NCBI GenBank assembly: GCA_943357285.1
Contig: CALRGJ010000001.1
Span: forward strand, 124,001-188,000
DNA: 64,000 nt
From: Candidatus Peribacteria bacterium
GTDB lineage: Bacteria > Patescibacteriota > Gracilibacteria > UBA1369 > LOWO2-01-FULL-3
Direction of reading: 5' to 3'
Shown: one piece after another, positions 38,944-41,047 of the stretch
Layout: each line of letters begins with the position of its first letter
Numbering within the stretch: the stretch's first letter is position 1
Notes under the pieces: model-generated
What the model saw: the letters and a program-made list of their open reading frames with translations, nothing else
Told to the model about the DNA's origin: nothing
The model's database searches: none
Translations under genes and position numbers: made by a program

Positions 38944-38972
38944 TTGACGTTTATTGGAAATCGGAATATCAA
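38944..38972 (+). promoter_or_regulatory. Promoter of the argF leader
   Basis: -35 TTGACG (38944-38949) and -10 TATCAA (38967-38972), 17 bp apart. Transcription would start a few nucleotides before the leader-peptide ATG at 38983. An overlapping pair TTTATT/TAATAT (38950-38955, 38973-38978) is an alternative. Confidence 0.6.
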
Positions 38973-38982
38973 TAATATCGCA

Positions 38983-39054
38983 ATGAATACACAAATCTCT
39001 CAAATCATAGTTAATCGCCGCCGCAGCACCGATACATCTCGGAAGCTGCGCTAA
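38983..39054 (+). CDS. Arginine-rich leader peptide of argF
   Basis: A 23-codon open frame from ATG to TAA, beginning MNTQISQIIV and ending NRRRSTDTSRKLR. Five of 23 residues are Arg, including three successive CGC codons at 39016-39024. It lies between a promoter and an intrinsic terminator and ends 83 bp before argF, the gene for an arginine-pathway enzyme. The placement is that of an attenuation leader peptide: slow translation of the Arg codons would report arginyl-tRNA shortage. Coding status is inferred from this arrangement; it is too short for composition tests. Confidence 0.75.
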   Translation: MNTQISQIIVNRRRSTDTSRKLR

Positions 39055-39109
39055 ACGCGTGTAACAAAATTTTCAACCAATAGCTTCCGGGGTGATCCCC
39101 GGTTTTTTT
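39022..39109 (+). promoter_or_regulatory. Attenuator RNA structures upstream of argF
   Basis: Four segments fit classical attenuation. Segment 1, CGCAGC (39022-39027, beginning with the last of the three consecutive CGC Arg codons), pairs with GCTGCG (39045-39050). Segment 2, CTCGGAAGCT (39038-39047), pairs over 10 bp (one G-U) with segment 3, AGCTTCCGGG (39082-39091). Segment 3 overlaps the terminator arm CCGGGG (39087-39092), which pairs with CCCCGG (39097-39102) before seven T. Stalling at the Arg codons would free segment 2 and favour antitermination; reaching the stop codon would mask segment 2 and favour termination. Confidence 0.8.
39087..39109 (+). terminator. argF leader terminator
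   Basis: CCGGGG-TGAT-CCCCGG followed by TTTTTTT, 28 bp before the argF ATG. It reads only toward argF. Confidence 0.9.
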
Positions 39110-39137
39110 ATATATTTTATTTTTTAATTTCTAGTTT

Positions 39138-40103
39138 ATGAAAAAAGATCTCACAAAAATTACTGACTTGAGTCAGCAGGAAATTATGGAAATTGTTGGC
39201 ATGGCTTTTCGTTATAAGAATGGGGAATTAGGCACTGGTGAAAGTGGGCAGGCTTTGAAGGGAAAAGTGGTGGCGATGGTTTTTGAAAAGCCTTCCCTTA
39301 GGACAAAAGTGGCTTTCGAAGTGGCGACTGCCAAGCTCGGTGGCATTCCGGTTTACCTCACCAGTGGCCAGATTATGGCTAGTGGCAATAATGAAAAAGG
39401 TCGTGAATCTATTCCGGATATTGCCAAAAATTTGGAGAGATTTGCCGATCTAATTTTGGCGAGAGTTTATAGTCACAGCACTATTCAAGAAATTGGTGAT
39501 GCAGTGAAAATTCCGCTGATAAATGCGCTCTGCGATAAGCATCATCCTACTCAGGCTTTGGCTGACTTGATGGCGATTATTTGGCACAAATGTGGTGGCA
39601 AATTTGATGCTGAAAAATTGAGGAAAATGAAAGTTGCTTTTGTCGGTGATGGAAATAATGTGGCTACTTCTCTCATGCAAATTTGCGCGATGGTGGGAAT
39701 AAATTTTTCTGTCGCATCGCCAAAAGGTTATGAAATTTCTCAAGAAGCTTATGAGGAAATTTATGAACAGAAACTTGCGAATGAGGTGTCTGTGGAGTTT
39801 TGTGAAAATCCTGCGGAAGCGGTGGAAAATGCTGATGTCACTTATACCGACACTTTTATTTCCATGGGTGAAGAGCATTTAAAAGTTGAGAAAATGAAGG
39901 CTTTTCACGGTTATCAGGTAAATAAGTCTTTGCTGGATTTCGCTAAGACAGATGCCATTTTTATGCATTGTTTGCCGGCGCATAGGGGAGAGGAAGTGAC
40001 TGATGAAGTCATGGATTCAAAGCAGTCGGTAATTTTTGATCAGGCGGAATGCAGGATGCATATCGCTAAAGCTTTATTAACATTTTACTTACAAAAAATA
40101 TGA
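39138..40103 (+). CDS. argF: Ornithine carbamoyltransferase
   Basis: Makes citrulline from ornithine and carbamoyl phosphate. The 321-residue protein has the carbamoyl-phosphate motif FEKPSLRTKVAFEVA near residues 49-63 (S-x-R-T), HHPTQALADLMAI near 135, the ornithine-loop TFISMGEE and the catalytic MHCLPAHRGEEVTDEVMD. The SMG and HCLP motifs favour ornithine over aspartate as substrate. It is preceded by the arginine leader attenuator. Its TGA overlaps the ATG of the next gene (ATGA), giving translational coupling. No other arginine biosynthesis gene is in the window. Confidence 0.93.
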   Translation: MKKDLTKITDLSQQEIMEIVGMAFRYKNGELGTGESGQALKGKVVAMVFEKPSLRTKVAFEVATAKLGGIPVYLTSGQIMASGNNEKGRESIPDIAKNLERFADLILARVYSHSTIQEIGDAVKIPLINALCDKHHPTQALADLMAIIWHKCGGKFDAEKLRKMKVAFVGDGNNVATSLMQICAMVGINFSVASPKGYEISQEAYEEIYEQKLANEVSVEFCENPAEAVENADVTYTDTFISMGEEHLKVEKMKAFHGYQVNKSLLDFAKTDAIFMHCLPAHRGEEVTDEVMDSKQSVIFDQAECRMHIAKALLTFYLQKI

Positions 40104-41047
40104 CAAATTTAAAAATATTAAATGAGGTTGAGGAAGTGCAGGAAGGAGTGCCGCAGTACGTGTGGCAATTTCATGGTGAAGAGCCGGGGCCGACGGTGAC
40201 GGTGATGGGAGGGCTTCATGGAAATGAGACGGTGGGGATTGATGTGGTGGAAAAATTGCTCGCGGTGGTGAGAGAAAAAATTAAGATTGGTATGGTGAAT
40301 ATTATTATTGGAAATCCGGCGGCTGCTGAGGCTGGAAAAAGGTTTATTGATAAAGATGCAAATAGGTTATGGGGAGGAAAGTTGGTGAATATTCCTGAGC
40401 AGGATAGGGTGGAGGAATTGAAGCCGTTTTTAGCGCAGTCAGATTTGATGCTGGATTTGCATTCGACGATAAAGCCTGTGAGTGAGCCATTTTTGGTCGT
40501 TCCTTCTTTTGATCATGAATTGGTTGATACTATCCAGACTCTTGGAATTAGAAAAATTATAACCGGAGAAGGATTGAAATTGCCTGACAATGATCCGATA
40601 GAGTCAGATCTTTTCACAGTAGCGAATGGGGGACTTGGTGTGACGATTGAGGCTGGGTGGCAGGAGGATAATAATTTGGTGGATAAGACGATGGATTCGG
40701 TGCTGAGGGCTTTGGAAGAGGTGGGTATTTTCGAAAAAGATTCTTTGGCCAAACATAATCAGGCTGAGGTCGTGGAGACTTTTGAAATTTGGAATGCTTA
40801 TAGTGCTATTTTTCCTAGGGTTAATTTTCAATTTCCAGATGGTAAGGAATGGCAAAACTATGACGTTGTAAAAAAAGGAGAAATTATCGGCTATGAAAAT
40901 GGTGAGCCAGTGGTTGCTGAAAAAGATTCCAGACTTTTGTTTCCAAAATCTAATAACCAAATTGTAACAGGTGAGAGGGCCTGCATTTTGCTTGATATGA
41001 AGCCACAATATCTTGATAAAGATTCTCTACCACTCAGTGTGAAATGA
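40100..41047 (+). CDS. Succinylglutamate desuccinylase/aspartoacylase-family zinc hydrolase
   Basis: The 315-residue protein fits the AstE/AspA (M14-like) family: zinc ligands in GGLHGNETVG (His40, Glu43) and LMLDLHSTIKP (His121), substrate-binding KDANRLW near 85-91, and a candidate catalytic Glu in TIEAGW. Members remove acyl groups from N-acyl amino acids. The 4-bp overlap with argF and shared attenuator suggest it acts on an N-acylated arginine-pathway intermediate, for example releasing ornithine or citrulline; that is inference. The 3' end overlaps convergent gnd by 21 bp. Confidence 0.8.
   Translation: MTNLKILNEVEEVQEGVPQYVWQFHGEEPGPTVTVMGGLHGNETVGIDVVEKLLAVVREKIKIGMVNIIIGNPAAAEAGKRFIDKDANRLWGGKLVNIPEQDRVEELKPFLAQSDLMLDLHSTIKPVSEPFLVVPSFDHELVDTIQTLGIRKIITGEGLKLPDNDPIESDLFTVANGGLGVTIEAGWQEDNNLVDKTMDSVLRALEEVGIFEKDSLAKHNQAEVVETFEIWNAYSAIFPRVNFQFPDGKEWQNYDVVKKGEIIGYENGEPVVAEKDSRLLFPKSNNQIVTGERACILLDMKPQYLDKDSLPLSVK

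Follow-up and report, generated by a model that had tools for sequence, protein, structure and literature searches.

Leader-peptide attenuators are known for the trp, his, leu, thr and phe operons. An Actinobacterial survey catalogues attenuators of the trp, cys, ilv and leu types (PMC1262725), and the trpL leader mRNA of Sinorhizobium meliloti starts directly with the leader peptide's ATG (PMC7298713). Arg codons serve as sensors in the Salmonella and E. coli speF leader ORF34 (SpeFL), where Arg-Arg codons sense arginine and Rho and RNase G take part (PMC6386406), and in S. aureus rbfL, whose short leader responds through its Arg codons when arginine is limiting (PMC13009471). Here we describe the region upstream of argF in a 64,000-nucleotide stretch of DNA from an uncultured Candidatus Peribacteria bacterium with a small genome (contig CALRGJ010000001.1, positions 124,001 to 188,000; the whole stretch is called the window, and its genome is designated G000 in our comparisons). 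An earlier note had read this region as an arginine leader-peptide attenuator of argF. The upstream regions of relatives support that reading, and the leader is very probably a ribosome-mediated transcription attenuator of argF that senses charged tRNA-Arg.

Results

Anatomy of the leader upstream of argF

All features described here lie on the forward strand. The promoter (38944-38972), identified by sequence and scoring, has a -35 element TTGACG (38944-38949), a 17-nt spacer and a -10 element TATCAA (38967-38972). The leader peptide ORF (MNTQISQIIVNRRRSTDTSRKLR; 38983-39054) comprises 23 codons plus TAA and has no Shine-Dalgarno sequence; an Arg-Arg leader is conserved at argF and argG of relatives in the class. 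The transcription start is placed at about 38979-38981, by inference from the promoter, and since the leader ATG lies 10 nt past the -10 box, the 5' untranslated region would be about 2-4 nt. Codons 12-14 are the sensor codons CGC CGC CGC (Arg12-14; 39016-39024), and two other Arg codons follow downstream, CGG at 39040-39042 and CGC at 39049-39051; across the ORFs of the window, CGC has a frequency of 6.4 per 1000 codons and CGG of 0.37 per 1000. The promoter and the 23-codon frame with three consecutive and two further Arg codons, as the earlier note had listed them, are all present in the sequence.

In the minimum free energy (MFE) fold, segment 1 (39022-39032) pairs with 39039-39042 and 39045-39050 in a 1:2 hairpin of 10 pairs (39022-39027 with 39045-39050, and 39029-39032 with 39039-39042). 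The alternative 2:3 antiterminator joins segment 2, its 5' strand (39035-39048), to segment 3, its 3' strand (39081-39094), in a 14-bp duplex of -23.3 kcal/mol. Both helices had been proposed before and both are real, but their lengths, given as 6 and 10 bp, were too short. Segment 3 includes the 5' arm (39087-39092) of an intrinsic terminator formed by segments 3 and 4, CCGGGG-tgat-CCCCGG followed by TTTTTTT (39087-39109; hairpin 39087-39102, -11.6 kcal/mol). Because the 2:3 helix consumes this entire arm, antiterminator and terminator are mutually exclusive, which bears out the exclusive pairing described earlier, and none of 5000 dinucleotide shuffles paired as well with the terminator arm as the real upstream strand does. 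The gene that follows, argF (39138-40103), scores 343.7 bits against the TIGR00658 equivalog cut-off of 280.85 and matches Pfam OTCace and OTCace_N, confirming that the seven-T terminator stands upstream of an ornithine carbamoyltransferase.

Folding depends on the position of the ribosome

We refolded the leader with the nucleotides under a simulated ribosome masked. A ribosome placed over the Arg codons leaves the antiterminator as the MFE structure, even when the full terminator has been transcribed (-25.7 and -20.6 kcal/mol), and one placed over the stop codon leaves the terminator (-11.7 kcal/mol). The ribosome-free fold contains the 1:2 hairpin plus the terminator (-32.5 kcal/mol), so the default state would be off. 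The computed folds follow the classical logic of an attenuator; regulation built on them is a model, in which leader translation, ribosome stalling and an effect of arginine are, like the transcription start, predicted from sequence. The RNA would begin a few nucleotides 5' of the leader's start codon, and ribosomes, probably initiating on a leaderless message, would translate the leader while it is still being transcribed. When charged Arg-tRNA is scarce, the ribosome would stall at CGC CGC CGC and cover segment 1, leaving segment 2 to pair with segment 3, so that the terminator is blocked and argF is transcribed. When arginine is ample, the ribosome would arrive at the TAA (39052) and cover segment 2, the 3:4 terminator would form, and transcription would end ahead of argF.

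Arg leaders recur across the class

We searched 353 genomes of the class for argF and argG and examined their upstream regions. True argF was present in 29 genomes and argG was present in 69, with true argF defined by E<=1e-50 since pyrB paralogues had swamped a first scan. A leader was counted if an ATG-initiated ORF of 10-60 codons contained Arg-Arg among its final 20 and was followed, 12-70 nt past its stop, by a terminator. An Arg-Arg leader with a terminator was present in 42 of the 87 argF/argG upstream regions, compared with a mean of 0.6 and a maximum of 3 in dinucleotide-shuffled regions (20 rounds), 8 of 229 upstream regions of control genes, and 9 of 87 for the best other doubled amino acid, Ile. 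Two of the eight control matches precede genuine arginine genes, namely argC in G312 (MHSYANFLNRRRTTALLRRLRRRS) and an acetylglutamate-kinase-like gene in G204 (MINLLLNRRIRTLRLRTVRKR), and a third precedes the LysE gene of G188. One Arg leader was found in a different class of the same phylum (G599, L201).

The pairing logic is kept in the relatives as well. For each of 45 curated leaders we computed how probably upstream sequence holds the 5' arm of the terminator; the mean is 0.74 for a ribosome at Arg, 0.18 for one at the stop and 0.45 in shuffles (Wilcoxon p about 1e-8). Strand 2 pairs with its own strand 3 at a mean of -15.4 kcal/mol, versus -8.0 kcal/mol with the strands 3 of other leaders (41 leaders), and none of 10000 permutations reached the value for own pairs. 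The advantage of own over permuted pairing also holds in 13 leaders without a common 6-mer in strand 3, so the hairpins have been rebuilt several times while the pairing was kept. The alignment of argF upstream regions proposed in the earlier note gave the pattern expected there: the short frame is retained together with its Arg codons, flanks and hairpin sequences vary, and pairing is preserved. Leaders with a broken or Arg-free frame and a retained terminator, which that note had named as the contrary case, were not seen as a pattern among the relatives.

Codon choice separates the amino acid from the nucleotides. All 14 codons in the first Arg runs of UGA-recoded genomes are AGA or AGG, and in all other genomes 104 of 107 are CGN (CGC or CGT in most lineages), implying that what is conserved is the amino acid. 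The existence of UGA-recoded families also suggests that the class belongs to the Gracilibacteria/Absconditabacteria part of Patescibacteria. Among the 31 leaders with a good promoter, 17 have a spacing of 5-10 nt between the -10 element and the ATG, which is compatible with leaderless translation and would place the beginning of the transcript no more than a few nucleotides from the ATG; the suggestion that the window leader is itself leaderless fits these cases. At least five loci carry two leader-peptide attenuators in tandem (L031, L132, L133, L168 and L175), and G055 probably carries such a pair too.

A second copy and the arginine pathway of the window genome

The argG and argH genes of G000 are unlinked to argF and lie beyond the window (G000:C1:86259-83656). 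They are preceded by a promoter (TTGACA-17-TACATT), a leader (MIKLTSTTSVVRRSRLRQKLR), an antiterminator and a terminator with a T-run, so that a second copy of the attenuator would control this operon. Since argF, argG and argH all score above their equivalog cut-offs, the genes downstream of the leaders make arginine, the amino acid that is sensed. An argC-like match in G000 reached 38 bits against a cut-off of 233.6 and is not a real argC, leaving a complete pathway to ornithine unsupported. The repressor ArgR (PF02863) was detected in none of 17 genomes tested, G000 included, and in 8 of 14 control genomes. With neither a real argC nor ArgR, G000 would make arginine from ornithine and lack the usual repressor.

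The start of an AstE/AspA-type deacylase gene (40100-41047, forward strand; Pfam PF24827, with NCBIfam matches below cut-off) overlaps the argF stop (ATGA), and the two genes are probably co-transcribed. The deacylase might release ornithine or citrulline from an acylated form.

Alternative explanations for the leader

The peptide itself could be the sensor, binding arginine or ornithine in the exit tunnel as SpeFL or the fungal arginine attenuator peptide do, in place of a sensor of tRNA charging. K-L-R or K-F-R-R endings do recur among the Arg-rich peptides of one subfamily, and speF is already known to respond to arginine through an Arg-Arg leader (PMC6386406). However, the K-L-R ending coincides with the antiterminator strand, and across families the peptides diverge outside the Arg run, with RRRP, RRTPLI, RRSN and RRRLVRNSH each running to the stop codon. 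Moreover, four leader peptides had no Pfam match at E up to 1, including to DUF2618 (PF10940), the family of SpeFL/ORF34. We therefore consider a nascent-peptide sensor very improbable.

Even less credit is due to the idea that a plain terminator, with a short ORF present by chance, causes constitutive partial termination without any sensing of arginine. Intergenic terminators are common, but the comparative data weigh strongly against this explanation: it does not account for the shuffle and control-gene statistics, the alternative pairing matched locus by locus, or the second copy in G000. A T-box or metabolite riboswitch is just as hard to credit, even though several relatives have Arg T-boxes ahead of argF or argG. 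An Rfam scan of the window leader gave chance matches only, with no family near threshold, the G000 genome has no T-box match (RF00230, with its stem I specifier and GGUACC antiterminator bulge), and the leader preserves a reading frame and its Arg codons.

Attenuation through charged tRNA-Arg thus accounts best for the leader, and several points weigh against it. The support is entirely computational, with the transcription start and leaderless translation read from sequence. About half of the argF/argG regions have no leader; some of these are inside operons, some have T-boxes and others are unexplained. The automatic scan assigned the wrong terminator in 4 of the 45 leaders, and because the 45 had been selected by hand for having Arg runs and terminators, the antiterminator and permutation tests are the only ones that this choice does not affect. 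Finally, many leaders share descent, so the 45 do not represent 45 independent events; 13 of them have no common 6-mer in strand 3.

Interchange with Arg T-boxes

Several loci that lack the leader have an Arg T-box or are internal to an operon. A T-box stands in place of the leader at argF of G313 and at argG of G295, G053, G010 and G296, and, outside the class, in G624; together with G037 these make seven T-boxes, and the specifier, read by position after GAA in the Rfam alignments shown, is CGC (Arg) in all seven. In G037, an Arg(CGC) T-box (L112, G037:C201; 1399-1693) is directly followed by an Arg leader attenuator (about 1810-1990), and argF comes next. As predicted from these motifs, this region is two different tRNA-Arg sensors in series.

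A shared frame break in argF of two relatives

The argF genes of G023 (L004, G023:C2:128496-129411, minus strand) and G027 (L005, G027:C15:53421-54336) share a +1 frame break at TTR GGG AGG CAA CGC, and the zero frame terminates 8-9 codons downstream. The two genes, from two species, are 80% identical across 997 nt without a gap. Substitutions at the three codon positions number 8/3/21 in frame 0 before the break and 32/14/106 in the +1 frame after it, and this third-position bias on both sides makes both parts look selected. The zero-frame slip codon is AGG, which occurs at 3.4-3.8 per 1000 codons in these genomes, and the first Arg codon in the leaders of G023 and G027 is likewise AGG. The break is consistent with programmed +1 frameshifting, a hungry Arg AGG being the codon at which the ribosome would slip; coming from two genomes, this candidate is a lead only.

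It is an evenly balanced proposition that the whole class, in whose tested genomes ArgR was not detected, controls its arginine regulon by sensing tRNA-Arg through translation, a system in which leaderless Arg-codon attenuators, often in tandem, interchange with Arg T-boxes (stacked in one genome) and, in one genus, argF adds a programmed +1 frameshift at Arg AGG as a second arginine sensor.

Leaders at other genes

Related leaders beyond argF precede argG(H), argC, acetylglutamate-kinase-like, LysE-type exporter and arginine deiminase-like genes. A wider search with a covariance model built from one subfamily (KLR-type leaders) found leaders in G188 ahead of a LysE-type exporter and ahead of an arginine deiminase-like gene, in G004 ahead of an Asp/Glu racemase and in G035 ahead of an argH-linked gene. 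Matches weaker than about E=1e-5 mostly look like chance, and those in G005, G027 and G020 were rejected on inspection. A single contig of G188 bears four Arg leaders (L248, G188:C34:7000-13991), at the LysE exporter, at the arginine deiminase-like gene and as a tandem pair before argF. In G035 (L246, G035:C1:1-3500), the leader MISKNIISSQISRCGTSRKTQKLR is followed by a 251-codon ORF, the first 200 residues of which have no Pfam match, and then by argH. In G004, where neither argF nor argG was found at E<=1e-50, the leader MESLIIKFNSRRRRSEILQKLR (L247, G004:C1:76600-76687) lies ahead of the racemase and a likely asparaginyl-tRNA synthetase, so named only because its sequence resembles one.

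Discussion

Attenuation of argF by its leader would place arginine synthesis among the amino acid pathways with classical attenuation, and it offers a regulatory circuit that can be tested concretely in a bacterial radiation whose gene regulation is very poorly known. Because two unrelated RNA devices for the same tRNA are swapped at the same genes, the evolution of attenuators becomes directly testable here. Leaderless leader peptides also pose the question of ribosome-polymerase coupling from the first nucleotide. The earlier note had expected an arginine version in a likely member of the candidate phyla radiation to be new, and in the literature searched, of which coverage was incomplete, we found neither Arg leader attenuation of arg genes nor attenuation in the candidate phyla radiation.

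Like the SpeFL leader, the leaders described here would use two consecutive Arg codons as a sensor of arginine supply; SpeFL, in contrast, controls ornithine decarboxylase by Rho, RNase G and occlusion of the ribosome-binding site, and is not an intrinsic-terminator attenuator of arginine synthesis. The rbfL leader is also short and has Arg codons, but it exerts translational control over a biofilm regulator by occlusion of the ribosome-binding site. Arg T-boxes (RF00230) share the sensing of uncharged tRNA-Arg, the choice between terminator and antiterminator, the same genes in relatives and the CGC specifier, whereas their RNA binds the tRNA directly without a reading frame, and none was found in G000. 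A leaderless start is not unique to these leaders, since S. meliloti trpL is likewise a leaderless attenuator (PMC7298713), although it serves tryptophan in an alphaproteobacterium. The closest likeness is to the trp, his, leu, thr and phe attenuators, which also place a short ORF with a run of the regulated amino acid and 1:2, 2:3 and 3:4 pairings ahead of a biosynthetic operon; here, the amino acid is arginine, the leader is often leaderless, copies occur in tandem, Arg T-boxes replace the leader or are stacked with it, and the host is a Patescibacteria-like class. The mechanism itself is thus classical, of the trp/his type, and its specificity for arginine biosynthesis, its lineage, its frequent leaderless start and its interchange with T-boxes are, as far as we have found, new.
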